34,273 nt of DNA, taken from a virus. Of this stretch, positions 22-34,273 are shown one piece after another. The stretch covers positions 17,707 to 51,979 of IMG/VR virus record IMGVR_UViG_3300029319_006393. One strand, given 5' to 3'. The number at the start of each line of letters is the position of its first letter. Position 1 is the first letter of the stretch. The notes below the pieces were generated by a model, which saw only the letters and a list, made by a program, of their open reading frames with translations, ran no database searches and was not told the origin of the DNA. The position numbers and the translations under genes were made by a program.

Positions 22-291
22 TTAATTATAAATGTTAGGTGTATCCTTTCGGGTGCCTAACGAGTTGATTACCTTATCAGCAATCTGGTCTAAAGATACT
101 ATAAACTTAAGTATCTCGCAACGACCTTGACTATGTTGGTAGTTGTCCGTTATTTCCAACTGGTCCCGCTCCGCCTGGCGTAGGGACTCCATTTCTTGCA
201 TTAGGACCGACCACTCCGTCCCCATTTGGGACTTGATTAGCTTCACCGCCTTGCTGGCTGGCAAGGATAGCTTGTTGTAGTGCTTGCTCAT
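22..291 (-). CDS. Conserved small phage protein overlapping the portal gene end
   Basis: 89-aa protein of unknown function, with a charged helical middle (roughly residues 30-75, containing ERDQLEITDNYQHSQGRCEIL) that looks like a real soluble coiled protein rather than a chance reading frame. The start at 291 is chosen because AAGGAG (304-299) sits exactly 7 nt upstream of the ATG, which is ideal Shine-Dalgarno spacing. The first 161 nt therefore overlap the 3' end of the portal gene in another frame, where the portal tail is Gly/Pro/Asn-rich. It follows the portal in the late unit, where scaffold or head genes normally begin, so a head-assembly accessory role is possible but unproven. It ends 21 nt from the window edge. 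Confidence 0.75.
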   Translation of the reverse strand: MSKHYNKLSLPASKAVKLIKSQMGTEWSVLMQEMESLRQAERDQLEITDNYQHSQGRCEILKFIVSLDQIADKVINSLGTRKDTPNIYN

Positions 292-9819: not shown

Positions 9820-10144
9820 ACCTACTCCTCTCCATTCTTAAGTTTGCCATTTTCGTTCTCCACTCCTCAAACTGCATATCAATAGCAGCCTTCTCCGTGT
9901 TTAATGCATCAAGCCTAGCCTTTGCATTAGCAACCTGTAAAGATGCGTTAAAATAGCTCTCAGATGCTTCTGCTTTAGATTTTTGAGCATTATAGCTACG
10001 CTCTCCATCTTCTTTTGCTTTACACAGCTCAATCCAAAAAACTTTTTTTAAGTTCACTTCAAACTTTAGCACATTTATTCTAGCTTCTTTAATATCAGGA
10101 ATGATATCTCTTAGCTGTTGATGAAAGTTTTCAGATTTGTCCAT
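9809..10144 (-). CDS. Coiled-coil hypothetical protein following the helicase
   Basis: 111 aa using the ATG at 10144, which has GGAAG about 9 nt upstream; a longer frame starting at 10207 lies inside the helicase gene. Almost entirely helical, with Ala/Glu/Lys heptad-like stretches (for example NASLQVANAKARLDALNTEK), so it probably forms a dimeric coiled coil. It follows dnaB with a 14-nt overlap, suggesting a replication accessory role, but there is no motif to confirm it. Confidence 0.7.
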   Translation of the reverse strand: MDKSENFHQQLRDIIPDIKEARINVLKFEVNLKKVFWIELCKAKEDGERSYNAQKSKAEASESYFNASLQVANAKARLDALNTEKAAIDMQFEEWRTKMANLRMERSRYGA

Positions 10145-11438
10145 ATTGTTTTCTTCCCCCGAAAGCCTGCTCCTCTGGGTCCACAAACCTTGATCTGTGT
10201 CCCTCAAACCCTAGCTCAAACTCTCCTGTTTCACCTAATCTGTTCTTTCTAATTATAACCTCCGCAAGACCTGTGTCCAAGGAGTCATAATATTCTTGTC
10301 TATACAGCATGATTACCATATCAGCATCTTGCTCTATAGATCCTGAGTCTCTCAAATCTGAGAGGACTGGTCTTTTATCCGTTCTCGCCTCCACACCCCG
10401 ATTTAATTGAGATAACGAGATTAACGGACAAGAAATTTCTTTCGCCAGTCCTTTCAGAAGATTGGAGATGTAAGTCATTGATGCAGTTCTGCTATCAGAA
10501 TTACTTGGTGCTTTGTTTGTTGTCATCAAAAGCTGTAAGTAATCAACTACTATCAAGTCAACATCTGTGATTGATTGTATTGCTTTGGTTTTGTTTATTA
10601 AAGTCTCAATGGTGATGGGTGATTTGTCATAGATGTATAAGCCAGACCCAGATAGTTGTTGTTTTACTGTATGAAATGATGCCCATTCGCTTTTAGACAT
10701 ATTGCCAGCAATAAGAGAATCCATTTTAATGCCTGACTCAGAGCTTATTATTTTCTTAACAAGTTGTTCGTTTGTCATTTCAAGACTAAAAACTAAAACA
10801 TTTTTACCTTTCATAACATTGTTTGTTGCTATATTCAGTGCCCATGTGGTTTTACCCATGCCTGGTCTGCCAGCAACAACAATAAGATCACCAGACTTAA
10901 ACCCTTTTATTTTTTCATCTATGTTTTTGAAACCAGTTTTTATTAAATTCTTGCTTACTGCATTTGCATCTTTTAACTCTTGCTCAACAGTGTTTATGAC
11001 ATCTATAACATTTTTAGGTGCTCCAGAGTTTTTGGTTATCTTGTTGTTAATTAAAAGGTCATTAACTTTATCTATCATTTCCTCAATAGTTATATCTTCC
11101 GCAACAATAACTGGTATTTTTTTTGCAAGGTTCTTTAGTTTGTTTTTAGATGTTTTTAAATTCATCATCTTCATCCAAGAAGCAAATCCAGCAGACGAAA
11201 TACAGTATCCTGCTGCTTGCCTGACTTCCTCAACCATGCTTTTATTTTTCAGATTATGCATGACCGTAACCATGTCCGATCTTTGGTGTTCTAACATAAC
11301 CTCATAGGCTTTACCGTAAGCTTTGTTTTCAAAATGTTCTGGCAACAAACCTTCTTCTTGTGAAAGTAAAAACTTTTTATGATCTAAAATTATTGATCCT
11401 ATTAAGTTTGATTCTAAGTCTAATAATTCCTTATCCAT
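10131..11438 (-). CDS. dnaB: Replicative DNA helicase, DnaB-like
   Basis: 435-aa hexameric helicase unwinding DNA at the phage replication fork. The N-terminal helical domain (~1-110) is joined by a linker to a RecA-fold domain with Walker A GRPGMGKT (190-197), catalytic Glu220 (FSLEM), Walker B LIVVDYLQLL (295-304), SLSQLNR (341-347), the DLRDSGSIEQDAD block (361-373) and the arginine finger in RKNR (R400). Length is slightly below bacterial DnaB. AGAGGAG precedes the ATG, and the gene overlaps the upstream winged-helix gene by 8 nt. No phage DNA polymerase or primase is visible here. Confidence 0.95.
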   Translation of the reverse strand: MDKELLDLESNLIGSIILDHKKFLLSQEEGLLPEHFENKAYGKAYEVMLEHQRSDMVTVMHNLKNKSMVEEVRQAAGYCISSAGFASWMKMMNLKTSKNKLKNLAKKIPVIVAEDITIEEMIDKVNDLLINNKITKNSGAPKNVIDVINTVEQELKDANAVSKNLIKTGFKNIDEKIKGFKSGDLIVVAGRPGMGKTTWALNIATNNVMKGKNVLVFSLEMTNEQLVKKIISSESGIKMDSLIAGNMSKSEWASFHTVKQQLSGSGLYIYDKSPITIETLINKTKAIQSITDVDLIVVDYLQLLMTTNKAPSNSDSRTASMTYISNLLKGLAKEISCPLISLSQLNRGVEARTDKRPVLSDLRDSGSIEQDADMVIMLYRQEYYDSLDTGLAEVIIRKNRLGETGEFELGFEGHRSRFVDPEEQAFGGRKQYGQI

Positions 11439-12063
11439 ATCTCCTCTCTATAATTGCATCAAATTGATTCATACCTAACATTGTCATCAGTGTAGGTTTT
11501 TTGTCCCAGTAAGATCTAATCCATTTTTTATGACCATCACTATTTGCAATGCTGAAGTATGCTTCCCAAAACTCTTCCTTGGTAAGATCTATTTTGTTAT
11601 TTGTTTTTGGTGAGGTTATTCCTTTTCTCCCCAACTCCCTGAGCTCCTTCCATCTTGGCACAGCCTTGAATGTATTGACTGAGTGCTGATAAAAAACCTT
11701 GTCAGTTTTTTCTTTGAAAATATTATTTATTTTATCCAACTCTAGTATATATACCTTTTTAGTATTAACTTTAGTATTGTAGCCACCTGCCGACCCCCTA
11801 TAGCCGTCTGCCGACCCCACCTTAAGGCTATAAAGATTGCTTGTATTATTTCGTTTTTCCCAGTCAATATACCCAGCATCTTTTAACTTTTTTAAATTAT
11901 CTTTTACAGCTGTTAATGAAAGACCTGTAATTTCTGTTAGCTTTTCATGTGATGGATAGGATTGACCAAACTGATCTGAGTAATTAGCTAGTGCAAAAAG
12001 AATTAATTTTTGAGTCGGTGAGACTTCAATTCTAATAATTTTTGTAATGTATTCTACTGACAT
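11431..12063 (-). CDS. Winged-helix replication initiator-like protein
   Basis: 210 aa. Residues ~15-80 form a winged helix (HTH_36-like): SPTQKLILFALANYSDQFGQ, YPSHEKLTEITGLSLTAVKDNL, KKLKDAGYID. The middle contains two short repeats (GSADGYR/GSAGGYN), and the C-terminal part has WEAYF...GHKKWIRSYWDKKP, a helical region as in helicase-loader or DnaD/O-type proteins. Position directly before dnaB supports a role in origin binding and helicase loading. GC-rich direct repeats inside the gene are listed separately. Confidence 0.8.
   Translation of the reverse strand: MSVEYITKIIRIEVSPTQKLILFALANYSDQFGQSYPSHEKLTEITGLSLTAVKDNLKKLKDAGYIDWEKRNNTSNLYSLKVGSADGYRGSAGGYNTKVNTKKVYILELDKINNIFKEKTDKVFYQHSVNTFKAVPRWKELRELGRKGITSPKTNNKIDLTKEEFWEAYFSIANSDGHKKWIRSYWDKKPTLMTMLGMNQFDAIIERRYG
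11780..11818. repeat. Two 18-bp direct repeats inside the initiator gene
   Basis: TAGCCACCTGCCGACCCC (11780-11797) and TAGCCGTCTGCCGACCCC (11801-11818), 16 of 18 identical, period 21 bp, flanked by AT-rich DNA. They encode the linker GSADGYR/GSAGGYN. Phage lambda and relatives keep origin iterons inside their O gene, so these are candidate iterons; two copies are few, and the match could also reflect a duplicated peptide. Confidence 0.5.
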
Positions 12064-12170
12064 TTTGTTTCCTCATTTACATTTAACACCAAAAATAAAA
12101 TAAAGTAAATACATAAAATTAGTTGATTTATTAATTTACATCATTATACTTATTACAAACTGGAGGAAAT
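12064..12170. promoter_or_regulatory. Divergent promoter region between initiator and ERF genes
   Basis: 107 bp, very AT-rich, no gene. Plus strand: TTGATT (12123-12128), 16-nt spacer, TATACT (12145-12150), then TGGAGGA before the ERF start. Minus strand: a weaker TTTACT, 17 nt, TTAAAT. ATTTAC occurs at about 12074 and 12133 and inverted as GTAAAT near 12105, which could be regulator half-sites. Promoter calls are by consensus only. Confidence 0.5.
12123..12150 (+). promoter_or_regulatory. Candidate sigma-70 promoter for the recombination unit
   Basis: TTGATT at 12123-12128 and TATACT at 12145-12150 (five of six to the -10 consensus) with a 16-nt spacer, about 20 bp before the ERF start codon. 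Confidence 0.5.
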
Positions 12171-12773
12171 ATGAATAATCTTATCGATGCTTTATTGAAA
12201 GCACAAAACGAAATTGACCATGCTGTAAAAGATGGGACCACACACTTTGGTGGCTATCCAACCCTTGAAGCTGTCATTAATACAGTCAAACCAGCACTTA
12301 ATAGAAACGGTGTTTATTACCAACAAAAAACAGTGGCTAGTGAAAGAGGCGTTGTTGTAGAGACTGTCTTTTATGGACATGGTGCAGAATTAAATGCTGG
12401 TCAACTTATGGTTCCAGCAACAAAAAATAATGCTCAACAATTTGGTTCAGCACTTACATATGCAAGAAGATATGCTTTAGCTACTGCTTGTGGTATTGGT
12501 GCTAGAGATGATGACGGTCAAGAGTCAACTGCTGCATCTAACAATATAGTAGAAGATGATAAACCTGAAAACCATGTTGCTGATATGTTAAAAGATTTAG
12601 AAGATGAGCAACCAAAAAGCAAATCTGAATCAGATAAAATATACCAAAGACACTTAGAAACATTTCAAATCACAGACGATAAAGAAGTTCAGGCTGAACT
12701 CACATCTGCATATGCAAAATGGGTTGACGACAAAAGAGCAGCAAGAGCCAAAAAAGATGAGGATCTTTTATGA
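12171..12773 (+). CDS. erf: ERF-family single-strand annealing protein
   Basis: 200-aa recombinase of the P22 Erf superfamily, which anneals complementary single strands in phage recombination and genome circularisation. Core signature: YPTLEAVINTVKPALNRNGVYY (residues ~28-50), VVVETVFYGHGAEL, NNAQQFGSALTYARRYALAT and CGIGARDDDGQ (~90-120). The C-terminal third is acidic and unstructured, ending in Lys-rich residues. TGGAGG lies 6 nt before the ATG. It overlaps the YqaJ exonuclease by 4 nt; the two form the usual annealing protein plus 5'-3' exonuclease pair. Confidence 0.92.
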   Translation: MNNLIDALLKAQNEIDHAVKDGTTHFGGYPTLEAVINTVKPALNRNGVYYQQKTVASERGVVVETVFYGHGAELNAGQLMVPATKNNAQQFGSALTYARRYALATACGIGARDDDGQESTAASNNIVEDDKPENHVADMLKDLEDEQPKSKSESDKIYQRHLETFQITDDKEVQAELTSAYAKWVDDKRAARAKKDEDLL

Positions 12774-13720
12774 AAATAAAACAAGGCACGCCTGAATGGC
12801 ATGAACAAAGAAAAGGTATTATTACTGGAACTAGGTTTCAAAAAGCTGTTAAAGAGTGTATATGGACTAAAGGCGATCAGTGGGAAGCTTTAGGTAGAGA
12901 AATGTATCGTGGAGACCATAACCTTTCTCAAGATCCTTTTAATCAAAATGCTATCTATGCAATGAAATGGGGCACAGAAAATGAGCCTGTGGCTATACAA
13001 GCACTTAAAGAAATGGGCTTTCAAATAGTTCCAACATCTTTTGTAAAACACAAGGAACATGATTGGCTTGGTATGTCGCCAGATGGTTTGCTTAAAAAAG
13101 GCAGAGATAATAAAAGATCAGCTATAGAAATTAAATGTCCAATTAGTAAGCCAGTAGAAAATGTTAAAGAATCAAAAAGAAACTATTGGCATCAAATGCA
13201 GCTTGGTATGGAGTGTATGGATTTAGATGAAATGCTTTTTGTGCAGTGGACACCGAATGAAATCAAGACAGAGTGGGTTGAAAGAGACCCAACTTGGGCT
13301 GAAAGATATATACCAAAAGCAAAAGAATTTCTTGTTTGGTATAAAGAACAACTAGAAAACCCAGAAGTTATTACAAGATGGGCTCAAGATAAAGAAGAGC
13401 CTGGAGTGAACTATAAGCCTGTTGATGAAGATGATGATACATCTAAATTAGCAAGTATTATTGCCAAACTAAAGAAGCTAGACGAAGCTAAGAAACCGTT
13501 GGAAGCAGAGAAAAGAGAACTCGCTGACAAGCTGGTTGAAAAGCATAGTGGAGCCTTTAGCACGCCTACGGTTAAGTGTCATATGACACACGCCAAAGGG
13601 CGTATAAACTACACCAGAATGGTGAAGGACCTAGAGATACCTTACGATCAGGTAGAGGGCTACAGAGAAGAGGGTAAACCTAGGATCTATACTAAATTAG
13701 TGGAGAATAAAAATGAGTAA
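12770..13720 (+). CDS. YqaJ-family viral exonuclease
   Basis: 316-aa PD-(D/E)XK exonuclease that resects double-strand ends for the ERF protein. Motifs: GTPEWHEQRKGIITG (residues 6-20), WGTENEP (68-73), SPDGL with D105, catalytic AIEIKCP with E120 and K122, then YWHQMQLGM. After residue ~210 comes a charged coiled region (KLASIIAKLKKLDEAKKPLE) and a C-terminal domain RINYTRMVKDLEIP that resembles the extra tail seen in several phage YqaJ proteins. ATG overlaps the erf stop by 4 nt. Confidence 0.93.
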   Translation: MKIKQGTPEWHEQRKGIITGTRFQKAVKECIWTKGDQWEALGREMYRGDHNLSQDPFNQNAIYAMKWGTENEPVAIQALKEMGFQIVPTSFVKHKEHDWLGMSPDGLLKKGRDNKRSAIEIKCPISKPVENVKESKRNYWHQMQLGMECMDLDEMLFVQWTPNEIKTEWVERDPTWAERYIPKAKEFLVWYKEQLENPEVITRWAQDKEEPGVNYKPVDEDDDTSKLASIIAKLKKLDEAKKPLEAEKRELADKLVEKHSGAFSTPTVKCHMTHAKGRINYTRMVKDLEIPYDQVEGYREEGKPRIYTKLVENKNE

Positions 13721-15807: not shown

Positions 15808-16034
15808 AAGACAATAAAAAAGTCTTTGAAGTTGTCATTGAAAAAGATGTGCCAGTGCCATCAAAATATTGGAGTAAATGGGCAAAAATTGTAGATCACA
15901 TGGAAATTAATGATTCTATAGTTTTACCTAATAGAACAACAGCAGACAGGTTTTGTCAGCATGGCAATAGAAGAGGTATGAAATTTACAGTTAGACAAAA
16001 TGATAAGGGTTTAAGAGTATGGAGGATAAAATGA
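15804..16034 (+). CDS. Small conserved protein next to the integrase (DUF7303-like)
   Basis: 76 aa: KDVPVPSKYWSKWAKIVDHM, EINDSIVLPNRTTADRFCQH, GMKFTVRQNDKGLRVWRIK. The order of a proline-containing opening, a 'GDS-like' strand, and a final strand-turn-strand ending WRI resembles a phage family often called DUF7303, seen beside recombination or integration genes. AGGA lies 7 nt before the ATG. It could be an excision or recombination-directionality factor by position, which is only inference. Confidence 0.65.
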   Translation: MKDNKKVFEVVIEKDVPVPSKYWSKWAKIVDHMEINDSIVLPNRTTADRFCQHGNRRGMKFTVRQNDKGLRVWRIK

Positions 16035-16831
16035 ACACATGGAAGAAAGCAGTTAAAGAGTATTACAGGTTTCATAAGATGGGTAGAAATGATTTTACCT
16101 ACAGAAAATATTTTGATCCTATCCTAGAAGACAAAGATATAAACACTATATCCAAACAAGATATAGCAAAAATTAAGTCTGGCATTAAAGGTAAGCCAAG
16201 CACAGTCAATAGATACTTAAGTTATTTTAGAGCAATACTTATGTATGCTTACGAAGAATTAGGATGGTTGGACTCCAAGCCTATAATCAAAAGAGTAAAA
16301 GAACAGCCTATGAAGACTAAGTATTTTACTCTGGAACAAATCAAGAGGCTCTACAAGGTTTTACCCGACCACTTGAAAGATCCTTTTGAGTTTTCCCTCC
16401 TAACTGGGGTGAGGATGTCCAACTGTCTTAATCTTAAATGGACCCATATACACAAAAATCAGATCGCCATAGATGCAACAGAAACTAAAAATGGTAGACC
16501 TTTATGCGTGCCTTTGAACAAAAGGTGCTTAGAGCTCCTACAATCAATTAATAATACTAGCCCTTATGTTTTTACCTATGCGGGCAGAAAGATCAACAGA
16601 GCGTCTAACACGGGCTGGTATAACGCATTAGATAAAGCTGGACTGAAAGGATATCGCTGGCATGATATAAGACATACCTGGGCTACCCACCATGTGATGA
16701 ATGGAACCCCCTTACATACACTTCAGCATTTGGGCGGGTGGTCCGACTTTAATATAGTTAATAGGTATGCTCACCTATCAGAAGATTATTTGAGTGAGGC
16801 TTGTGAGAATAGCAATACTTTGATATCTTAG
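16031..16831 (+). CDS. int: Tyrosine recombinase / integrase
   Basis: 266-aa phage integrase catalysing site-specific recombination between attP and attB. Start at 16031 has GGAGG with 5-nt spacing; an ATG 12 nt earlier overlaps that site. N-terminal SAM-like core-binding domain (~residues 1-92), then the catalytic domain with R128 (TGVRMSN), K153 (TKNGRPL), H211-x-x-R214 (HDIRHTWAT), LGGWS with W237 in the His/Trp position, and nucleophile Y246 (NRYAHL). All catalytic residues present, so it should be active. No N-terminal arm-type domain is evident. It is the last gene of its strand, next to the non-coding region expected to hold attP. Confidence 0.95.
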   Translation: MNTWKKAVKEYYRFHKMGRNDFTYRKYFDPILEDKDINTISKQDIAKIKSGIKGKPSTVNRYLSYFRAILMYAYEELGWLDSKPIIKRVKEQPMKTKYFTLEQIKRLYKVLPDHLKDPFEFSLLTGVRMSNCLNLKWTHIHKNQIAIDATETKNGRPLCVPLNKRCLELLQSINNTSPYVFTYAGRKINRASNTGWYNALDKAGLKGYRWHDIRHTWATHHVMNGTPLHTLQHLGGWSDFNIVNRYAHLSEDYLSEACENSNTLIS

Positions 16832-16856: not shown

Positions 16857-16910
16857 GCGGGGCTTTGATTGCAGTTTCCTCAAAAATAGTTTTTATAAGT
16901 CCCGCTTTTT
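16857..16910 (+). terminator. Intrinsic terminator after the integrase
   Basis: GCGGGGCTT (16857-16865) pairs with AAGTCCCGC (16897-16905) through nine positions including one G:U, followed by TTTTT (16906-16910). The 31-nt loop itself contains AAAAA-TAG-TTTTT that can pair. The U-tract is on the plus strand, so it ends the int transcript; on the minus strand it would have none. Confidence 0.6.
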
Positions 16911-19900
16911 AATTATTGTCTTCTTTTTTCTTTTCTTTCCCCTTACGCAGAGCTTTGTTGTATTCCTTGTTGAATTTTAAATATACAAGCTGAACTTCTT
17001 GATCGTACTTAAGCATTAATTCTTCATATCTATCTGGGTCTTTAATTTGATATAAGTTTTGTGCAGTTTTTATTTTATCTCTTATTTCTTTTAAGTCTTT
17101 TTCAGCTTTTAAAAGCTTTGGCATACTTGCATCTCTTACTGCTTTAGATCGCTTGTTAAAAATTCTTTTTTCCTCTGGAGTCCTAATGTCGCCCAGTTTC
17201 ACAATTCCCATGTTTTCATTTTTTCTAAACTCAGCCTTTTGTTTAAAATCAAGATTTTTATACTCATGTGCTAAAGCTTCTATCTCATCTTTTCGCTTGT
17301 AGTATCTAGACCCATTAATAAAATCTTGCGGTTCAGCAATGGCTGATCGAAATATTGGATAATCTTCAAAAGAATCAATTCCTAGTTCTCTTTTTCTAGG
17401 CAAGTCAGTAACCCTTCCAATAGTCCTTCCTAATCCACCCGCATGATAATCTATAAAGTATTTAAATTGATTTGGGTCTAAATCTGCCCAACCAGATCTG
17501 TAATCATTACCTCCAGTCATATCGTTTAAGGCTTTGGTAAAATCAACATAACCTTTGTTGGTGCTTCTAAATGCTTTTTTAAATTTTGGTTCTGGCACAG
17601 AATATGGAAAATCCTCTTTTGTTATTGGTCCACCAAAATAAGTCTCGTTTGCTGCTATATCTAAAAAAGGTCTCACAATAGGAGACGGAGCAAACGCTCT
17701 AGTTCTTGCAAGCAAACCATCCAATCCAGTAGCTTCTGTGGTTATTGGTGATATTGGTGAAAAAGAGGTTATAAAGCTATCTGCTAATTCATAACCCGCT
17801 TCCTCTATTGTTGTAACTGGAATTTTGAATTTTTCAGGAAATATTTTATCTGCCTGTGTTTCAACAAAAAGCCTTCCAACATTAAAATGTACATTGTATC
17901 CATATGCTAATGGAATAGATAATGCAAAAGGTTTTTCTCCAGTAGGATCCATATATTTTTTTATTTCACCAAACTTTTTAACTTGTAAACCTTCACCAGG
18001 TTTAATTTTTATTTCATCAGGTAAAACCAGAAGCATGTTTCTGTTTCTTTCATACTCTGGTATTTTTTTATATACAAGCTCACCATCTTCATCCTCATCA
18101 CTCATTAATATGTTATACATACCATAAAGCATACCTGCGGTTGCTGCACCGAGACTTAAACCTATTTTGGCAGGCTGTAGCCTTCTTCTTCCTCTTTTTG
18201 TAAAAATATTTTGTCCACGCATAAACTGCACAGATCCTTGAACAGCTGGATTAAAAAACATTAACAGGGCACCTATCTCTTGACCCCACTCACCCCTTCT
18301 ATCAAAATTAACTGAAGCATTTTTTGCCTGCACTGCTGCTCTTCTTTTATTCTCCATTGAAACATTATCAACACCACCTCTTTGTCTTATAAATGCTTTG
18401 AATTGCGACAATCGCCAACCGTTTTCGAACATATTATTTAAATCTCCGATAAAGTCTAGAGTATTTCTTTTTAAATCTTCCGCACTAATTTTTCCTGCTC
18501 TATATTTTGCAAGTGCAGTAAAGTTTTTAGTCAGCTTATCAGTATCTAAAAACTCAAAGTAAGATGTTTTAGAGCCCAGAGCATGATACATTTCTACTAA
18601 CTTTCTTTTTTCTGGATCTTTAATACCCTCAGGTCCTTTTCTGTAATATACAAAAAGTTCGCCCAAACTTGGTAAAATACCTTTAATTGAGTCAAATATA
18701 ATGCTTGATCCATAAATCCTGCCACCTGGAGTTGACTGCTCTCCTAATGCACTTGCAGTTGCAGCATAACCATCTCTTGAGAAATTCATGAACATAAAAT
18801 CTGGATTGTATCCAGTATTCATTATTGACATAAACCTTGTCATCATGGCTACATATTGAAAAGCTTTATGCATACCCTGAGTATCTAGGTGTTGTAATGC
18901 TCTTGCTAATCTTTCATCTCTAATTATTACAGCTTTTTGTTTGCCATCTTCTTTGAAAAATACATATCCAGATCCTCTAATTGGATCCCACTCTGGTCTT
19001 AGTTTTGCTTCACGGGGAACTTTCTCTAAAGTTTCATATACCTTGGGGTTTTTAAATGTTCTTGCCTGATTTGCAAGAGTTGTTGCAACTTCATTTTTTT
19101 CTGCACGAACAATAGCATTTTCCCTTTGCTTGTACATTTGTATTATTGGGTCTCCTGCAAGGGATGTCCTACCTTTGGCTTTTGGTACTTCTAGCCCATA
19201 TACAGACAAACCCTTGCCCTGTCTGTTTGGTAACCCATCTGCATTGGTATCAGCTGCGAAGCCAGACAAGGGAATATAATATTTATATCTAGCCACCCAA
19301 TCATCAACATTTTCTTTTGAAACTAATCCGTTAGCTGTATAAACATCTCTAGTGCCTTGTATAAATTTTTGAGCAAGCTTACTAAGTGCTATATACTTTT
19401 TACCTTTTTCATTTATTGCCTTAATGGTATCGTTTGTTTTGTTATATTCAATACCGTACTTGTTAGCCAATGCAAAGATAGCATCATCAGTTTTAATACC
19501 TGATCCATTATCAGAAAAAGGCTCGGCAAGATTTTTAAGTTTTGTTATCTGTGCTTTTTGTGCTGGACTTAGCTGATCTCCATATTTTTCCATAGCAGCA
19601 TCAACCTTAGCCATTCTAGTTTCAAAAATATATTTGTTCCTTTCTGGTGCGTGAAGGTTGTAAAGAAAGTCTGTTATTTTGCCATAATCGTTATCAGCAA
19701 ACTCAAACATTTTATCAAGCATATTCCTTATCTCATCAGAGACTTTTAACATTTTGTCGCCAACTATAGACTTCATTAAGTCCGTTCTGTCAACCACAGA
19801 CAAATCTAAATCTTTGAGGATACCCATGCCTAACTGGTCCTCAATGACCTCTTCTAGAACTACCTGTCTTTCATATTGATTTTGAAACTTTGTTAAAATA

Positions 19901-22900
19901 TATTGAAGCATGAGACCTGAATTAAGCTCATCTCCAGATGACCATTCATAATTCTCAGATGGGGGCTTGCCTGGCGGTGCTGGTTTTTGTGTTATTTCAA
20001 AAGAAGGATCAACTTCAGGTTCGGGGTCAACCTTTCTTTCTATTTCTTGACTACTTCGATTCCTTGTTTCTTCAAATAGCTTACTAAGTTGTTGTATATT
20101 TGATCTCTGCTCATCCCTGGCTTGACTGTTAAGCCTTCCAGCTTCTTCGAGCTCTTGGATTCCTTGTTCTGTTCTTGTTTCATTAAATTCACCTAAATCA
20201 AAAATAGCTTCTTGTTGAGCTGCCTCTGCAACATATAATGCATCTTCCATTGTATCAAAAACAACTGTGGCATCAAGGTAATATTTTTTGTTGTCTTTAT
20301 TTAACCATCCTCCAGCATAAACATCACGGTTCATTCTGTCTGATAATTCTTTTATGTTGTCTACATAAGATTGAAGTATGTTATCATTTATTTGGTTTTG
20401 GTCGACAATAATCTCTAAGGCTTTTACAGGAGCAACTGCAAAGCCACTGCTAGGAGATTCTAGTGTTATTGGATCTACAGTAAACCCTTCTGGGTTTTGT
20501 TTTATAAAATCTAGTAGGGAGGTGGAGTTTAGTCTTGGTACTGAAAGTCGAATGTCGTTCCTGTCGGGCTCTCTTTCCTGTCCCTCCACTCTGGTATCGG
20601 CTGTTTGGTCCTGAGTGCCTTGTCTATCTGCTTGGTTATCTGCTCCTCTGTCTGGTACCGCAAAACTTCGCTGGGCAAGGGGTGATTGAAAAGCAGTGTA
20701 TAGTCCCTGAGCTTTCTTTGAAAATCCGTCAACTGATAACGCATCATTAATTCTCTCTATTAATTTAGTTGTTTCTGGAGCACTTTCCCTAAAGAGCTCT
20801 CTATTATTATTATATAAGACAAACATTTGTGCAAATGTTTCAGATTTATACCAGTTACCATCCATTTGAATTTGGTCAGCATTTGTAACAAAACTACCCA
20901 ATGGATATGAAAGCATATGACCACCATAATAATCTTCTGGAGTCTTTAAGGTCTTTTTGAATATTTCCAACGCCTCTTTCATTACAACTCCGCCTTGCTC
21001 TGTTTTAATATCCATGACTCCATCTTTGAATGTGGCTGGAGGCAAGTCAAACAATGGAGATTGTGCAGTTACTGGTCTATAAATAGATCTATCTTTTATC
21101 GATAGGTCCTTTCCAATTGTGAAGTCAATGTGATGACCAAGCTCATGCATGAACACATCTCGTAAAAACATTTTTGCTCCAAGCGGATTTTCAAAGTCTA
21201 AGTTTGATAAACCTGATATTGGAGATAATGTAATTCCTTGCAGTTCAGGCATATAGGTTCCATATGCAGGACTAAAATTTTTAAATCTTTCATCTTTAAC
21301 ATGTGCACCAATAAAGCTTAAATCAGAAAAAACATCTATTGGCACCATATCTTTAATGTCAATAAATGCCTTACTAACATTTATAATTTCATCAGCAGAT
21401 AAGTCTCTAACCCTATAAAGGTTTGTATCAGAAAATCTTACAGGCAAATCTTGGAAAATATTTTTATCGAATTTCCTTGGTTCAACAATGTGTTGTTTAA
21501 CAAGACTCAACTCGTTTGCATCATATGAGTCATTTTTAATTCTTTCAACATTCAACAAAGATGTTTCTGGCAGAGATAACACTAAATTATTTTGTGTTTT
21601 TGTAACTTGTTCTTTTATGTTTGGACCTGACTCAAAGTCAATTTCACTTGTAAGTTCTCCAGCTTCTTTTTTGGGTAGAGCAAGAATTTGCTCTGTTTGC
21701 CCGTATTGATAATCAACTTTCTCATCAAAGCTTTTCTGAAACTTTGTTTGCACTTCTTCAGCAAAAGACATATTTTCTGTTGTTAGGGCTTCAGTCTGCC
21801 CTACAAAATCTATGTTAAGCAACTCTTCAGCTATAATGTTCATAGGGTCAACACTATTATTGTCTACCATTTCTGGGCTGTTTAATTTTATTGCTGCTTT
21901 ATCAAGAGCAATTTTTACCATATCCTTATTAGCAACTAAGTTTGATAGTTCGTTGAGTATTTCTTGCCCCTCTTGTTCCCCTTTAGATTTTATTGCAGAC
22001 TTGATTTGTGGCGACAGTTGCACTGCTGTATTAATTCCAGTTATGGTTCCTCCAGCTATAAATGACCCCAAGGCAGTATGAGCAAGATTATCACCAATGA
22101 TTTCTGGTACAGATCTACCCTCATAAAAAGGATTATTGTAATTGTCATAAGCAATTCTTAGTTCATCTTGATTATCAAAATAAGCATTACTATGTGTTTG
22201 TACTAGCGTGTTAATTTGCTCTCCCACCTGGTCAGCAATGAAAGCGTCAGCACCATTTTCTAGAATTTCTTTAACATACTGCTCTCCAGGTCCTTTTTTA
22301 AAAATGTTGATGCCCTTCGCTATTCTGGCAGCTGGCAAGAGTTCAGTAACTACTTCAGATGTAGCTTGTATTTTTGCGTTGGCGGTTGCATCCTTAATAG
22401 ACATACCTCTAGCCACAGAATCTTCAAATACTTCTCCATAAGTAATAGTTCCAAAAATAGGTAAGCTGCTTAAGGCAAAAGAAGTAGAAGCAGCAGGATT
22501 TTTTGTAACATAACTTGCGATAAGAGAGGGTGCAACTAAGCCAATACTAGTTACGGCTCCTGTAATTGTTTGGTCTGTTCTATCTGTAAATCCAGCTTGT
22601 TTGTATCTTTTTTCTCGTTGTGCTCTTTTTTTTGAAGTTTCTTTGTCCCAAGACTCTCTCCATTCAGAAAAGTCTTGTTGCGTTTTTTCTCTAATTTCTT
22701 CTAACTCTTCTTTTGGTTTTCTAGTTAAAGCTATATCGCCTGAGCCAAAAAAACTTTTTTTCAGACCAACATCTTTTTCAATCTCAGATCTGATATAACC
22801 GTAGCCTACCACTCTGTCTCTTGTTAACTGATTCGCTATACTGCTTGTATCTTCATCAGAATCTAACTGTGCATTAAGGTCTTCTAGCAAATCATCAAAT

Positions 22901-23166
22901 GCTTGTGCTTTTATGCTCTTGAAAATTTGCTCTGGCATATCAGCATAGGTTTCAAGAAGATCAATGCCTCCTTGCTTAAAATACTGTGGTGTTTTTTGGA
23001 GTCTTGACTTGCTTTCTTTTGTTAAGGGATCTTCTTCTCTGGATTCAAGCTTTTGACCGAATTGATATTCTTGTTGGTTTTGTTGTTCTTTTCTCTGTTC
23101 TAACTCTTCAAGAGTTTCTTCTTCAGGCTCCTTCTCTAGTAGTTGACCAAATTTATATTCTGCCAC
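16909..23166 (-). CDS. Giant multidomain internal virion/ejection protein with zincin motif
   Basis: 2085 aa, last gene of the structural unit, starting at GTG behind AAGGGG. By size, position after a group of Ala/Gln-rich internal proteins and lack of a tail tape-measure context, it resembles the largest podovirus ejection protein (T7 gp16 role). The N terminus repeats EYKFGQLLE/EYQFGQKLE (residues 3-11, 33-41). Residues ~205-290 and ~365-385 contain hydrophobic/Ala-Gly stretches. HELGHH at 674-679 is an HExxH zinc-protease motif; E776 in KSETFAQMF is a possible third ligand. A region near residues 1400-1520 (YNPDFMFMNFSRDG) looks like a large polyvalent protein-associated domain (LPD38-type). 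Another hydrophobic span is near 1670. The Lys-rich C terminus could bind DNA. Confidence 0.85.
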   Translation of the reverse strand: MAEYKFGQLLEKEPEEETLEELEQRKEQQNQQEYQFGQKLESREEDPLTKESKSRLQKTPQYFKQGGIDLLETYADMPEQIFKSIKAQAFDDLLEDLNAQLDSDEDTSSIANQLTRDRVVGYGYIRSEIEKDVGLKKSFFGSGDIALTRKPKEELEEIREKTQQDFSEWRESWDKETSKKRAQREKRYKQAGFTDRTDQTITGAVTSIGLVAPSLIASYVTKNPAASTSFALSSLPIFGTITYGEVFEDSVARGMSIKDATANAKIQATSEVVTELLPAARIAKGINIFKKGPGEQYVKEILENGADAFIADQVGEQINTLVQTHSNAYFDNQDELRIAYDNYNNPFYEGRSVPEIIGDNLAHTALGSFIAGGTITGINTAVQLSPQIKSAIKSKGEQEGQEILNELSNLVANKDMVKIALDKAAIKLNSPEMVDNNSVDPMNIIAEELLNIDFVGQTEALTTENMSFAEEVQTKFQKSFDEKVDYQYGQTEQILALPKKEAGELTSEIDFESGPNIKEQVTKTQNNLVLSLPETSLLNVERIKNDSYDANELSLVKQHIVEPRKFDKNIFQDLPVRFSDTNLYRVRDLSADEIINVSKAFIDIKDMVPIDVFSDLSFIGAHVKDERFKNFSPAYGTYMPELQGITLSPISGLSNLDFENPLGAKMFLRDVFMHELGHHIDFTIGKDLSIKDRSIYRPVTAQSPLFDLPPATFKDGVMDIKTEQGGVVMKEALEIFKKTLKTPEDYYGGHMLSYPLGSFVTNADQIQMDGNWYKSETFAQMFVLYNNNRELFRESAPETTKLIERINDALSVDGFSKKAQGLYTAFQSPLAQRSFAVPDRGADNQADRQGTQDQTADTRVEGQEREPDRNDIRLSVPRLNSTSLLDFIKQNPEGFTVDPITLESPSSGFAVAPVKALEIIVDQNQINDNILQSYVDNIKELSDRMNRDVYAGGWLNKDNKKYYLDATVVFDTMEDALYVAEAAQQEAIFDLGEFNETRTEQGIQELEEAGRLNSQARDEQRSNIQQLSKLFEETRNRSSQEIERKVDPEPEVDPSFEITQKPAPPGKPPSENYEWSSGDELNSGLMLQYILTKFQNQYERQVVLEEVIEDQLGMGILKDLDLSVVDRTDLMKSIVGDKMLKVSDEIRNMLDKMFEFADNDYGKITDFLYNLHAPERNKYIFETRMAKVDAAMEKYGDQLSPAQKAQITKLKNLAEPFSDNGSGIKTDDAIFALANKYGIEYNKTNDTIKAINEKGKKYIALSKLAQKFIQGTRDVYTANGLVSKENVDDWVARYKYYIPLSGFAADTNADGLPNRQGKGLSVYGLEVPKAKGRTSLAGDPIIQMYKQRENAIVRAEKNEVATTLANQARTFKNPKVYETLEKVPREAKLRPEWDPIRGSGYVFFKEDGKQKAVIIRDERLARALQHLDTQGMHKAFQYVAMMTRFMSIMNTGYNPDFMFMNFSRDGYAATASALGEQSTPGGRIYGSSIIFDSIKGILPSLGELFVYYRKGPEGIKDPEKRKLVEMYHALGSKTSYFEFLDTDKLTKNFTALAKYRAGKISAEDLKRNTLDFIGDLNNMFENGWRLSQFKAFIRQRGGVDNVSMENKRRAAVQAKNASVNFDRRGEWGQEIGALLMFFNPAVQGSVQFMRGQNIFTKRGRRRLQPAKIGLSLGAATAGMLYGMYNILMSDEDEDGELVYKKIPEYERNRNMLLVLPDEIKIKPGEGLQVKKFGEIKKYMDPTGEKPFALSIPLAYGYNVHFNVGRLFVETQADKIFPEKFKIPVTTIEEAGYELADSFITSFSPISPITTEATGLDGLLARTRAFAPSPIVRPFLDIAANETYFGGPITKEDFPYSVPEPKFKKAFRSTNKGYVDFTKALNDMTGGNDYRSGWADLDPNQFKYFIDYHAGGLGRTIGRVTDLPRKRELGIDSFEDYPIFRSAIAEPQDFINGSRYYKRKDEIEALAHEYKNLDFKQKAEFRKNENMGIVKLGDIRTPEEKRIFNKRSKAVRDASMPKLLKAEKDLKEIRDKIKTAQNLYQIKDPDRYEELMLKYDQEVQLVYLKFNKEYNKALRKGKEKKKEDNN

Positions 23167-30000: not shown

Positions 30001-30951
30001 AGCATTACCATTTGATGTAATTTGAGTTTGTAAGGTTGTATCAGAAGAAGATGTAGATCCTGCTGTGGTAGCTGCAAAAGAACTTCCTGTATAAACAAAC
30101 AACTCATTTATGTTTGGGCTTGAGTCTGTATCTATCCATATGTCCCCTGTTTGTAAGGATGTACCATCAGATCTTTGTGATGGTTCACTGTTTGATCTAA
30201 TAACCCTTGGTGTGTTTGTAGTAAGGTTTGAAACATTTGTTGAGGCTGTTGCAGCGAGTGTATTTATTGTTTCTAAGGTAGCTTGCAAAGTCCTTTGGGT
30301 GCCACTAATAGTTATACTCATATCAGTGTTCAATGTGCTAAAACCAGGCAATAGTTTTATCTCTTCTGATAGCTGTGTCATTACTGCACCCACATCTACG
30401 GCTGTGCTTGCAGATGTGCCAGTCTCACTGTTGAATGGTCCTGCTTCATCATTTTTATTTACATGACGAACCCAATAATATTTAGTTGCTGCGTTACCAA
30501 CTTGATGGCTAAATACTGATGCAGTAGTTTGTGCTAGAAATGTTCTTGAGGCAAAAGAATTAGAATTGCTGACAAATATTTCTGTATGAGAATGTCCAGC
30601 ATAGGAAGGAAAGTCCCAAGATAATAGTATGTTTTGGAAAGCACCTGAAGCCGAGAATCCAGTTGGTGCCGTGGGATTAGCTACGCCATCCTGTCTATCA
30701 TCATCGTCAATAACAAAATCAGAACCACCGCCTGTAAGGTTGAAGTTTTGTTTAGCAATGCCTGCATCTATGAGATCCTGAAAGGTTACTGCTTTGTCTA
30801 ATATGCTGCCCTTTTCACCTCTAAGCTGTTGTAAAGAGTCTAGAACAGACTGTGCAAATCTTTTGCCTTCAATACTAAAATCTCTTGGGACAGGGAAACT
30901 CCCACGGGCTTTGACATTCTTTTTTTTATTTTTTAAAAACTCATTTGCCAC
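27088..30951 (-). CDS. Modular tail fibre / tip protein with FN3 domain and six internal repeats
   Basis: 1287 aa from a GTG behind AGGAG (8-nt spacing), overlapping the previous stop by one base. N terminus basic, then a fibronectin-III-like domain (~residues 90-185, ANPTAPTGFSASGAFQNILL...). Next come six copies of a ~40-residue unit around GDLWIDTxxNNxxYRxxGSxW, separated by coiled-coil heptad-like segments (ANANAISTLSGTVTNQG). The C-terminal part (FADRFAI...VTPFIVDGGTVFIDTANIK, IDATDLVL) resembles the lambda J-type tail-tip C-terminal region, ending in a ~120-residue beta domain that may be the receptor-binding tip. Likely the host-range determinant. Confidence 0.85.
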   Translation of the reverse strand: MANEFLKNKKKNVKARGSFPVPRDFSIEGKRFAQSVLDSLQQLRGEKGSILDKAVTFQDLIDAGIAKQNFNLTGGGSDFVIDDDDRQDGVANPTAPTGFSASGAFQNILLSWDFPSYAGHSHTEIFVSNSNSFASRTFLAQTTASVFSHQVGNAATKYYWVRHVNKNDEAGPFNSETGTSASTAVDVGAVMTQLSEEIKLLPGFSTLNTDMSITISGTQRTLQATLETINTLAATASTNVSNLTTNTPRVIRSNSEPSQRSDGTSLQTGDIWIDTDSSPNINELFVYTGSSFAATTAGSTSSSDTTLQTQITSNGNAITQNASDILLVAGVSDNADISTSVNITSLNASITNSTTGLQANANAISTLSGTVTNQGNSISTLSTNVTELQGSITGFSSSSTVASAINGLQTQITDNDGDITNVNSSITQLTGTVNTKARTFVQDNAPTATAIGDLWIDSNDNNKLYRATATTNSNWVPVGDTSGLHVFAQDDEPTARPDGSALQEGDIWFDTNHADASGNLTNKQYRYNGSAFVAIEDARISANATAVETLTTNLSTTNGTVTSQGQKITNLENTVNDGATGVAATASNLNSLTNTVTSIPVNFKQANEPSGTLTAGDLWIDTDDNQLYRYTGSAWESVRDSVITSSSQAIQALQNTVNDSQTGVAANANAVSTLETEVFGSGSASASRIDALESTVNDSNSGVTASADAISALTTKVDTKNKSFVGTEQPANNTDNDLRTGDLWIETDNNNKIYRWNGSTWVALSPTSNQTFVGGSAPTANAVGDLWIDTSNNNEIKRWDGSAWQPLRDGLITANANSINAISSEIGVTFDAKVQTLSNKNINIQTFASGSAVAHNITDADVTSGVFLSLKGVSSVGGLTVEQLNRTFKVVSRITSTKLRVKVVGSAATSSTTSSIFSGACTIGTNAGVLQLAETTTNTLGQSEASYVMQVNSNGHIAGFVVQSSTTPDGQQTSNVVFQADRFAIVPSSGTGSVTPFIVDGGTVFIDTANIKNGSIEAAKIGSLTADLVNAVDIDADSIVTGQLDAAQIDVTGLITAGGLIIGSDLSTNGSTSIHGGNLQTGTISANKLTITPLEASDLGSSGTTVIDGGRISANTITANKIDATDLVLPTNGGLVSGSSLGNFNNNSKRYAFVVSVGSGSGFYQGYVRLKGGNGQVKTISLLFSDGTFGTGSGFQINTQVTSGGTDTTKLTDSDSGPFRYVTPDLEKLPGLISESRLTSSSDTANIPFAFRYTGTGTVNLFVYGQGNGNSRQIGSVDARFVKFSAS
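28530..30190 (-). repeat. Six protein-level repeats within the fibre gene
   Basis: GDLWIDT/GDIWFDT-type units are coded at approximately 28530-28640, 28660-28790, 29035-29140, 29335-29480, 29510-29640 and 30080-30190. Each has a short P-x-A lead, the GD(L/I)W(I/F)(D/E) strand, and a YR/W-x-G-S-x-W end. Spacing is irregular because coiled-coil stretches of different length intervene. Boundaries are approximate. Confidence 0.7.
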
Positions 30952-32627
30952 TAAGCTATCTCCTGTGGACTTTCATAAACGCAAACTTCGTTAATGATAT
31001 CTGTTCCCTCCAGCTGTATTTCAAAAACTTTACCTCTATAACCACCTGGCAACCTAAAAGGGTCTGAGTTAGCTACAGTCTGCGTGTGTTTTAGAGAACC
31101 ATCTGCGAAGAGTTTAAATGTAAGGGCGTTGTATGCTTCAGCATCAACTTTGGCAATGCCTGGAGATAAAGGTCTGTTGCTAAAAAATTCTTTCGACTTC
31201 CATAGGTATGATCTTTTAGTTGTGCCTCTAGCAAACTTTTTAAGAGTGCCATCAATAACTAAATATAACTCATCGTTTTCTCTGTCATTGAACCCTGCTG
31301 TTGCATAAAAATTAAGATTTACAAAAGCATTTTTGCCACCTCTAGGATCAAAGATAAAACCTTTTTTAGTTGAGTTGTCTGAGCCGTCATAAGTGAAAGC
31401 TATATACTTACCCTCATATTCATATGCTTCTACATTGCTTGGATAATACTCTGTTTGCCATTGATCCCTTGTGAGTATTTGTTCTGTAATAAGCTGTATG
31501 CCTGAGTTTGATGCTAAAACTAAACCATCAGGTGAAGAGTAAATAGCATACTCACCCATATCAACCAGGGATCTTTTATTAACGCATGGTAAGTTCGCAT
31601 CTATTTCTACCATAGCCATAGCACTAGGATCGGTGCCAGATGCCATCAAAGGCTTGCCTTTTGTTGTTACTAGCAAACCAGAGGCTATAGATGCTATAGC
31701 AACTATGTCCTCTTGCGTTGTTAATTGGTTAGCAAGTGGATAAGAGTGAGGCAGAAAAGACTCGCTAAAAAGCAAAGTATTACCTGAGAAACCTGCCGTA
31801 ATACCATTTGGCATGGTCGTAATACCAAGCATCGGTCCGTCTGGGTGATCTGAAGTAGTATCATCTGGTGGTGCTAGGTTGTCCGATGATTCTATTTCTT
31901 CCCCGAGAAGGTCGTCTGTAACTGCCTCTGTTGTTGTGCCAGCTGATGTACCAGTTACATCTTTGACAAATCTAAATACACCATTGATATCAGTTCTATA
32001 GATTCTTCTTTTGGCTATTGAATAATTACCTGATGTTGCTGCTGGTAAAGTTAATGTAACTGTAGCTCCATTTTCTGCATCTACAATGTCTGCTGATGTT
32101 ACTGCTGAGGGTGGTCCTTCTTCACCAAAAGTTGTTATTTCTGTGTATAAATAAGCTCTAGAGCTAAGGGCTGCACCGTCTGCTGCTGAAGTATTGTCTA
32201 CGCTTGGTGCTGCTGTAAAGGCTGCTGGGGTTGGTAATCCAAGCCTAAATGACGCTGTTGGGTATGGTCCTGAACCAGATACGCCAGATGATAGAGATGT
32301 ATATTTAGGAAAGTTGCCAGAACCTGTAAAGTAAAACCTACCGTGTGTATCTTCTTTAATAGGGCTTTTGATAACATCTACATCATCTGTAAAGGTAAAC
32401 CACGAAGATGAGGTAGCTTTGAATATAGTCCTTGTGGTGGCTGATATGTGTGATGCTGGGTGAGTGTTACCTGACTCAGAGGGATCATTCACATCTGTTG
32501 GTATGCCTTCTATTCTGCCTGAATCTAAAAAAACATTTTGTGCGTTTTGTGCCATATCCTCTGGCAACAAGCGAGGAGATACTTTTTTACTAAGTCCCGT
32601 AAATGTTGTAAGTTTAAATCCAGCCAC
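30951..32627 (-). CDS. Tail hub / nozzle-like structural protein
   Basis: 558 aa from GTG with GAGGG upstream. MAGFKLTTFTGLSKKVSPRL followed by LPEDMAQNAQNVFLDSGRIE is a common opening of podovirus tail proteins whose first residues bind the portal/adaptor, continuing as many beta-strand repeats (YLYTEITTFGEEGPPS, SIAKRRIYRTDINGVFRFV), suggestive of a beta-propeller-like nozzle (T7 gp12 role). Pro/Gly/Thr content and the location immediately before the fibre support a tail role. Exact family not recognised. Confidence 0.72.
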   Translation of the reverse strand: MAGFKLTTFTGLSKKVSPRLLPEDMAQNAQNVFLDSGRIEGIPTDVNDPSESGNTHPASHISATTRTIFKATSSSWFTFTDDVDVIKSPIKEDTHGRFYFTGSGNFPKYTSLSSGVSGSGPYPTASFRLGLPTPAAFTAAPSVDNTSAADGAALSSRAYLYTEITTFGEEGPPSAVTSADIVDAENGATVTLTLPAATSGNYSIAKRRIYRTDINGVFRFVKDVTGTSAGTTTEAVTDDLLGEEIESSDNLAPPDDTTSDHPDGPMLGITTMPNGITAGFSGNTLLFSESFLPHSYPLANQLTTQEDIVAIASIASGLLVTTKGKPLMASGTDPSAMAMVEIDANLPCVNKRSLVDMGEYAIYSSPDGLVLASNSGIQLITEQILTRDQWQTEYYPSNVEAYEYEGKYIAFTYDGSDNSTKKGFIFDPRGGKNAFVNLNFYATAGFNDRENDELYLVIDGTLKKFARGTTKRSYLWKSKEFFSNRPLSPGIAKVDAEAYNALTFKLFADGSLKHTQTVANSDPFRLPGGYRGKVFEIQLEGTDIINEVCVYESPQEIA

Positions 32628-32628
32628 T

Positions 32629-33051
32629 CTAACCCTCTGTTGGTGTGAATATACCTGCCTCTATAAGTTTCTCCCTATTGAGCATATGTGCTGCTTCTAT
32701 ATCATCTTTTGATTGACCACTGTAAGCTACAGCAAGGTTTTGGTTTATCATCTCTTGGTTGAGATCTAAGTCATCTGCAACAATAACCCCTAACACTCTG
32801 CCAAACTTACCTTTTTTATCTAACTTAGTTTGTACTTTTACAAAGTCAGCCTGCTCAATTTTTTCAGACAAAAACGCTGAAGCTAGCTTGCCTCTAGCTT
32901 TTTCATCTAAATCTCTGGTTCTAGATTCAGGAGTATCCACTCCAAAAAGTCTAATTCTAGACTTGAATACAATGTCGAAACCTAAATCTATTTCAGCATC
33001 TACTGTATCTCCGTCAACAACTCTGGTAACGGTGCATCTATATTCATACAT
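32629..33051 (-). CDS. Staphylococcal-nuclease-like (TNase) protein
   Basis: 140 aa. CTVTRVVDGDTVDAEIDLGF, RIRLFGVDTPESR and KFGRVLGVIV carry all counterparts of SNase active-site residues: D15, R34, D39, E42 and R85. Length is that of the minimal nuclease domain, and there is no signal peptide. A Ca2+-dependent nuclease in the late structural unit could degrade host DNA or act in the virion; neither is shown. Starts 3 nt after a 50-aa gene. Confidence 0.88.
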   Translation of the reverse strand: MYEYRCTVTRVVDGDTVDAEIDLGFDIVFKSRIRLFGVDTPESRTRDLDEKARGKLASAFLSEKIEQADFVKVQTKLDKKGKFGRVLGVIVADDLDLNQEMINQNLAVAYSGQSKDDIEAAHMLNREKLIEAGIFTPTEG

Positions 33052-33054
33052 TAT

Positions 33055-33207
33055 TTATTTCTTTTTTCTTTTTTTAACAGTTTTGTAAGCTTCATTCTTA
33101 GCAGTTGTAGGATCGTCAGCAATGTATCTGCCTTTCTTATCCCTTGTTCTAACCACTTCAGATTCAACCAAGCCTATTTTTGCTAACATATTACCAAACC
33201 AGCTCAT
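33055..33207 (-). CDS. 50-residue conserved-looking small protein
   Basis: MSWFGNMLAKIGLVESEVVR continues with TRDKKGRYIADDPTTAKNEA and a KKRKKK end. AAGGAGG precedes the ATG, which overlaps the holin stop by 4 nt (ATGA). The amphipathic MSWF start and the GRYIADDPTT-NEA core look like a small family that I recall from marine phages; function unknown. Confidence 0.7.
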   Translation of the reverse strand: MSWFGNMLAKIGLVESEVVRTRDKKGRYIADDPTTAKNEAYKTVKKRKKK

Positions 33208-33686
33208 TTGTCCTCCTTAGATTGAGAAGCTCCAAAATAAAAAGATATCACAGCACTAGCCAATCCACCTAAATATCCTAGAACTAAATTAATTAAAGCT
33301 TCACTATTTTGTTCTGGTGGCTGCAAGGTTACTAAAAATATGTAACCAAGAAAGCCTCCTAGTGTAGCTATGCCCATAATTCTTGTTGTCCAATCTTTTG
33401 AAAAATGTTTTCTTGCATCTTGTTTCTCTTGTGCCTCTAGCTTGTAAACATCAACATCAAGCTCTTTCATTTGTTTTTCAAAATCTTGTTCTGCTTTTTT
33501 AAGTTGTAACATTTGTTCTGGTGTTGCTTCAGCAATAGCTTTTTCTATAGACTTAGGGTTGTTTGGTACGCCAAGTGTTTCAGCTATTAGATTTGCTGCC
33601 ATGCCACCCATAGGTCCACCGATTGCTGTGCCTAGTGTTGGAGCTACTGCACCAACTACATTTTTAAGTAAATTCTTTAATGCCAT
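33204..33686 (-). CDS. Holin, three-TM type (GTA-holin-like)
   Basis: 160 aa resembling the Holin_3TM family (gene-transfer-agent release holin). Gly/Ala-rich opening VVGAVAPTLGTAIGGPMGGM continues AANLIAETLGVP, a soluble charged helix (AIAEATPEQMLQLKKAEQDF) follows, then the two C-terminal membrane helices (about residues 103-121 and 130-151) ending FYFGASQSKEDK. It would form the membrane lesion that lets the cytoplasmic GH24 endolysin reach the wall. It lies between the cyclase and structural genes, far from the endolysin. Confidence 0.82.
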   Translation of the reverse strand: MALKNLLKNVVGAVAPTLGTAIGGPMGGMAANLIAETLGVPNNPKSIEKAIAEATPEQMLQLKKAEQDFEKQMKELDVDVYKLEAQEKQDARKHFSKDWTTRIMGIATLGGFLGYIFLVTLQPPEQNSEALINLVLGYLGGLASAVISFYFGASQSKEDK

Positions 33687-33694
33687 AATTATCC

Positions 33695-34273
33695 TTATAT
33701 TGTATAAATAGCTAAAGGTTTGCTTTTACCCTTAACTTTTATGGGTTTAAGTAATTTTAAACTAAAATCAACACTTTTTGCAGTCTCATGCCCTATCAGT
33801 ATGTCTTCACCAACTTCTTTAGTTGCAGACTCTAATCTTGCTGCAACATTAATTGCATCACCTATACCAGAAAAATCAAACCTAGTATCTGATCCCATGT
33901 TGCCAATAACAGCCTCACCAGAGTTCACGCCTATACCTATAGCTATTGGCTCTGGTAACTCTTTTTGTAATTGTTTGATAGCGGTACGCATATCCTGGGC
34001 ACAGGCTACAGCTCTTTCTTCATGGTTGTCTAAATCTAGCGGTGCGTTAAATATTGCCATACAAGCATCACCTATAAACTTATCTACCATACCTCCATGT
34101 GCTTGTATGCAAGTTACTTGAGCTGTTAGAACTTTATTCATTATCTCTGTTACTTGTTCTGGTTCTAGTTTTTCAGATAGATTTGTAAATCCTCTGACAT
34201 CTGTAAATAAAAATGTGCAATATTTTTTCTCTCCCCCGAGTCTCAGCAGGTCAGGATTGTCTTGTAGTTGTTT
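33695..34273 (-). CDS. Class III nucleotidyl cyclase, catalytic domain (5' end cut by window)
   Basis: At least 192 aa; no start codon occurs before the catalytic motif, so the gene continues beyond the window. Visible: NPDLLRLGGEKKYCTFLFTD (leads into the domain), FTDVRGFTNLSE with metal Asp25, VDKFIGDACMAIFNAP with Lys65 (base selection) and metal Asp69, IGVNSGEAVIGNMG, and FDFSGIGDAINVAARLE with Ser135 where adenylyl cyclases usually have Asp/Thr, and the transition-state pair Asn142/Arg146. All catalytic residues are therefore present; cAMP is the likeliest product. The LGGE lead-in is typical of CHASE2- or HAMP-linked cyclases, so a sensor may precede it. It sits in the late unit before the holin. 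Numbering counts from the cut edge. Confidence 0.9.
   Translation of the reverse strand, partial: KQLQDNPDLLRLGGEKKYCTFLFTDVRGFTNLSEKLEPEQVTEIMNKVLTAQVTCIQAHGGMVDKFIGDACMAIFNAPLDLDNHEERAVACAQDMRTAIKQLQKELPEPIAIGIGVNSGEAVIGNMGSDTRFDFSGIGDAINVAARLESATKEVGEDILIGHETAKSVDFSLKLLKPIKVKGKSKPLAIYTI

Follow-up and report, generated by a model that had tools for sequence, protein, structure and literature searches.

A CHASE2-type class III nucleotidyl cyclase encoded beside a curli secretion cassette in the late operon of a podophage lineage

The last gene of a curli secretion cassette lying within the late structural operon of a phage was found to encode a protein of 583 amino acids (aa) composed of a CHASE2 sensor, membrane helices and a class III nucleotidyl cyclase domain. 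The gene is divided between the two ends of a 51,979-b virus record (IMGVR_UViG_3300029319_006393), whose right part, bases 17707-51979, constitutes the window analysed here (34,273 nucleotides). We consider it rather likely that this enzyme is an inner-membrane cyclase that reports, by way of cAMP, on the exported apparatus of FecR-domain and curlin proteins encoded by the same cassette.

Within the window the cyclase appears as a minus-strand frame (positions 33695-34273) that stays open over 192 aa and continues past the edge. These are the C-terminal 192 codons of the gene, and the N-terminal part lies at the left end of the record (L003:3-1394, minus strand). The last 221 bp of the window (34053-34273) overlap that left end imperfectly, with 5 mismatches that are all silent, and the 73 aa encoded within the overlap are identical in both copies. 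Joining the two ends of the record yields a single gene of 583 codons and a stop codon, whose ATG start is supplied by the left end. A separate contig (L004) carries the cyclase gene uninterrupted, encodes a protein that is 98.6% identical, and spans the join colinearly with 93.9% DNA identity across 6.6 kb. Because the ends join in one gene, with a terminal overlap, and a separate contig spans the join, the record is effectively complete, and neither host origin nor a chimeric join explains its edge; both reservations attached to the original prediction, a frameshifted or startless gene and a foreign edge, can therefore be set aside. In all probability the two ends derive from population variants that differ slightly.

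The full-length cyclase matches the Pfam families CHASE2 (PF05226, E=7.8e-24) in its N-terminal part and PF00211 (E=1.8e-22) in its C-terminal part, the CHASE2 domain being flanked by transmembrane (TM) helices. The adjoining sequence thus supplied the N-terminal domain that had been sought, and the protein has the architecture of a receptor cyclase, not that of a cytosolic catalytic domain alone. An AlphaFold model (mean pLDDT 89.7) shows, in this order, an N-terminal helix (residues 2-17), the CHASE2 body, three further long helices (295-316, 319-342 and 350-382) and the cyclase fold, and the best solved structures retrieved with Foldseek include the class III cyclases CyaB of P. aeruginosa, CyaC of Spirulina and Cya2. 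Two metal-binding aspartates (D416 and D460), the base-selecting pair (K456 and S526) and the transition-state pair (N533 and R537; full-length numbering throughout) are all present, in agreement with the earlier description of a catalytically complete class III enzyme. Five of these residues (D416, K456, D460, N533 and R537) do not vary in any of the 81 viral relatives compared, and position 526 is occupied by Ser in 54 of them and by Thr in the other 27.

The combination of Lys with Ser or Thr at the base-selecting positions is the class IIIb adenylate-type signature. There is a small chance that the product is some other cyclic nucleotide (cGMP, cUMP or cCMP), given that sequence cannot prove base selectivity and that Cya2, one of the neighbours in the PDB, is described as a guanylyl cyclase; against this stands the adenylate-type pair in every one of the 81 relatives. 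The pairwise dN/dS of the cyclase gene has a median of 0.12, with values of 0.04-0.05 against the nearest relatives, and this low ratio indicates that the gene is under purifying selection. The original prediction expected the enzyme to be active; judging from the intact gene and the invariant catalytic residues, it is intact and probably active.

An interference with a cyclic-nucleotide defence such as Pycsar had also been suggested, and a further reading is that the cyclase is itself such a defence. The PADLOC models for PycC, the cyclase of Pycsar, do match the phage protein (best E=4e-28), but only in the class III catalytic region, the fold that both enzymes have in common. In contrast to PycC, the phage cyclase has no effector partner, carries a membrane CHASE2 sensor and stands in another gene context, with curli and FecR genes as neighbours, and a search of the phage record for the cNMP-binding domain (PF00027) expected of a Pycsar effector returned none. 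We therefore regard a Pycsar role as hardly credible.

The cyclase is directly preceded, on its own strand, by the other genes of the type VIII secretion (curli) cassette, which lie at the record's left end. The genes of the cassette follow one another in the order TM116 (116 aa, a single TM segment, coiled-coil-like; L003:4323-4673), CsgF (L003:3902-4375; PF10614, 1.1e-16), CsgG (L003:3076-3951; PF03783, 2.5e-43), a curlin-repeat protein (L003:2424-3143; 20.8 bits against a cut-off of 20.7), a FecR-domain protein (L003:1394-2539; PF04773, 1.4e-9) and finally the cyclase. The stop codon of the FecR gene overlaps the start codon of the cyclase gene (TAATG), and the FecR domain (residues 73-160), preceded by a hydrophobic signal-like N-terminus, is the only domain found in the FecR protein. 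A canonical FecR anti-sigma regulator would have a cytoplasmic anti-sigma region at its N-terminus and FecI as a partner.

The late block to which these genes belong is encoded on one strand, starting at the large terminase subunit (2138-3724, minus strand; phrog_2, E=2.1e-33) and running via the left part of the record to the cyclase; the portal protein is encoded at 131-2134 (minus strand; PF23899, E=1.1e-19). Capsid and tail genes precede the cassette. After the cyclase come, all on the minus strand, a 160-aa protein with two predicted TM segments (TM160; 33204-33686; phrog_1544, of unknown function), a small ORF of 50 aa that is retained downstream in close relatives (33055-33207), an SNase-like endonuclease (32629-33051; PF00565, E=1.6e-12; phrog_452) and an internal virion protein (30951-32627; phrog_511, E=1.7e-138). 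Since capsid and tail genes stand before it and internal virion proteins after it, the cyclase lies within a late structural operon, as had been supposed.

The cyclase had further been placed just before a holin, which is unproven: a comparison of the 160-aa protein with the families of Pfam, PHROGs and NCBIfam gave no holin match. This bears on the possibility that cAMP, or the pore together with the cyclase, times lysis, according to the pinholin/secretin-type idea of PMC9004378, in which a lysis role was proposed for CsgGF. Such a role would be in keeping with the small TM proteins on both flanks of the cassette (TM116 upstream and TM160 downstream), but neither of them has a convincing holin-family match, that of TM116 reaching only E=0.006 to phrog_4898, and the gene order after the cyclase varies between phage groups. 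We consider a function in lysis timing quite unlikely.

Contrary to what was first believed, phage cyclases of this kind are not rare, because at least 594 relatives were found in IMG/VR, the isolates HTVC008M (a pelagimyophage) and Melnitz (a methylophage) carry the cyclase, and a curli cassette including it was described in 2022 for HTVC023P-type podophages and pelagimyophages (PMC9599517). The pore genes had been reported earlier (PMC7029224) and are also present in Melnitz (PMC9004378). The best 80 of the IMG/VR relatives were fetched for locus comparison, and among the loci with room upstream FecR was present in 72 of 72, CsgG in 40 of 40 and TM116 in 30 of 30, TM116 being doubled in six viral loci. 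When the loci were anchored on CsgG, the cyclase followed FecR in 38 out of 40; as to the remaining two, L177 ends inside FecR, and L202 is so short that it probably stops just past this gene.

The present cassette shares with that of the HTVC023P-type pelagipodophages (PMC9599517) the order small membrane protein(s), CsgF, CsgG, curlin, FecR and cyclase, whereas its carrier belongs to another lineage, bears an integrase and has one curlin gene, and here the cyclase is present wherever the contig clearly reaches far enough. A further difference concerns the preceding gene or genes ("sometimes two"), called histidine kinase in that study: at this place we found TM116, which has no HisKA or HATPase match in Pfam or NCBIfam. 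On the basis of position and duplication, not of accessions, we take TM116 to be the gene annotated there as a histidine kinase, and it is a constant small membrane component of the cassette. The cassettes of HTVC008M and Melnitz likewise follow the order CsgF, CsgG, curlin, FecR-type protein and cyclase, with cyclases 35% and 30% identical to the present one, respectively; these T4-like myophages differ in that a second, curlin-like gene separates FecR from the cyclase.

The cassette is new in an integrase-bearing podophage lineage without a close cultured relative. The nearest cultured relatives of its portal protein, those of HMO-2011-type phages, are 29-33% identical, and 7.3 kb of the phage compared with isolates gave only trivial DNA matches and none to HTVC023P. 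Another cassette carrier (L027) does match HTVC023P, and the structural and packaging similarity that defines the HTVC023P type was not found for the present phage. A tyrosine integrase is encoded at 16019-16831 (plus strand; PF00589, E=8.3e-24) and was detected in six of the six longer records of the lineage. None was detected in the ten other records tested, including HTVC023P-type contigs, the two myophages and also L004 and L018, which are shorter fragments of the same lineage. Given the integrase, the cassette occurs in a lineage that is probably temperate. A tRNA search of the window found none, and neither did a search for a tRNA T-loop-like motif that could mark an attachment site. The window also encodes a DnaB-type helicase, an HTH protein, an ERF recombinase and a YqaJ nuclease (10131-13720), as well as a 2085-aa protein with an LPD38 polyvalent-protein domain (16909-23166).

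FecR-domain proteins and CHASE2 cyclases form a pair of their own, apart from curli. In a set of 80 bacterial cyclase loci taken from contigs of GTDB genomes, 35 have a FecR-domain gene no more than 400 bp from the cyclase, a count obtained with an iterated FecR profile trained partly on the same 80 loci, and only 8 FecR matches occur farther out in the flanks. With a FecR profile built from viral sequences only, 22 bacterial loci had a match, located within 400 bp in 17 of them. About half of the 80 loci have no FecR gene detected nearby, some of them owing to short contigs, and neither CsgG nor CsgF was found in any. Pfam recognized PF04773 in all nine bacterial FecR partners checked and in the giant phage FecR protein.

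Clusters of CHASE2 cyclase and FecR genes have been reported in Campylobacterota (PMC9239204), and CyaD1 of S. meliloti makes cAMP constitutively when deprived of CHASE2 (PMC5498481). These bacterial enzymes resemble the phage protein in their CHASE2-TM-cyclase organization and in the FecR gene that is often close, but they have no CsgG or CsgF nearby, and all the viral cyclases are set apart from them in the tree as a single group (SH-aLRT 98), next to cyclases that are mainly alphaproteobacterial.

In a second viral clade, the cyclase and TM116-type proteins are accompanied by parts of a type I secretion system, namely an OEP (TolC-type) protein, HlyD and an ABC membrane part of ~255 aa without an ATPase domain, together with a FecR-domain protein of 1000-1700 aa. 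HlyD was found in 29 of the 37 second-clade loci with 700 b of room, four more showing curli genes, and the FecR-domain protein in all eight loci with 7 kb of room. This cassette, which recurs in marine phages and usually includes TM93/TM116, is seen at L204:5210-14827 and in L250, L252, L212, L224, L231, L234 and L247. Two contigs, L208 and L271, appear to combine the two arrangements, one cyclase being linked to type I secretion parts and another belonging to a curli cassette. The phage-like contig L086 comes from a MAG named Rickettsiales, and at least 302 relatives of its cyclase were found in IMG/VR. L086 and L204 correspond to contigs C19 and C12 of that MAG (genome G001) and are 99% identical over 12 kb; the presence of such phage-like contigs in a Rickettsiales MAG is a probable case of misbinning. 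Phage proteins on two large type I secretion contigs, including a baseplate connector and phrog_22485, support a phage origin. No phrog_2 terminase match was obtained in the type I secretion contigs, nor any match to the T4 capsid protein Gp23, although the Gp23 control matched nowhere either. In the part of the literature that we searched, there was no earlier description of phage CHASE2 cyclases or of a phage type I secretion set.

These loci bear on the suggestion made in PMC9599517, by analogy with enterobacterial cAMP/CsgD control, that a rise in cAMP brought about by the cyclase induces or adjusts the expression of the curli genes or of biofilm-like functions of the host. The co-location of the cyclase with curli genes speaks for it. 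However, the cassette belongs to a late structural operon and shows no regulator of the CsgD kind, and the cyclase occurs also with type I secretion parts without curli and, in bacteria, with FecR but no curli; we hold a regulation of curli or biofilm-like functions to be rather unlikely.

According to the reporting role that we favour, the FecR-domain protein would be exported via the neighbouring outer-membrane channel, a route suggested by the adjacent genes, which encode such channels, and would meet the CHASE2 sensor outside the cytoplasm, as its partner or ligand. The cyclase may then turn the condition of the exported FecR/curlin apparatus into a change of cAMP in the infected cell; a rise of cAMP during infection, as first proposed, may thus take place. 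The reader of this signal would be a host receptor, given that the search of the phage record gave no cNMP-binding domain.

The set of FecR, cyclase and TM116 looks like a portable sensing module that marine phages have put on different outer-membrane channels for export, either the curli pore or type I secretion. More tentatively, and somewhat short of what we would call probable, the three may constitute one module that is placed on interchangeable CsgG/CsgF or TolC/HlyD channels and reports export by cAMP. A module of this kind would signal envelope or surface export while streamlined marine bacteria are being infected.

Why phages that infect bacteria without curli should carry curli pores has been puzzling since 2020, and cAMP signalling by phages is, to our knowledge, almost untested. 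The cassette itself was known; what is added here is a new phage lineage, the FecR-cyclase pairing across bacteria, the type I secretion variant and the observation that the "histidine kinase" position of the published cassette holds a protein without a kinase domain. Since the FecR-cyclase pair is separable from curli and has a type I variant, the vague notion of "curli regulation" becomes a testable question of sensing, namely whether the CHASE2 cyclase senses the exported FecR protein.
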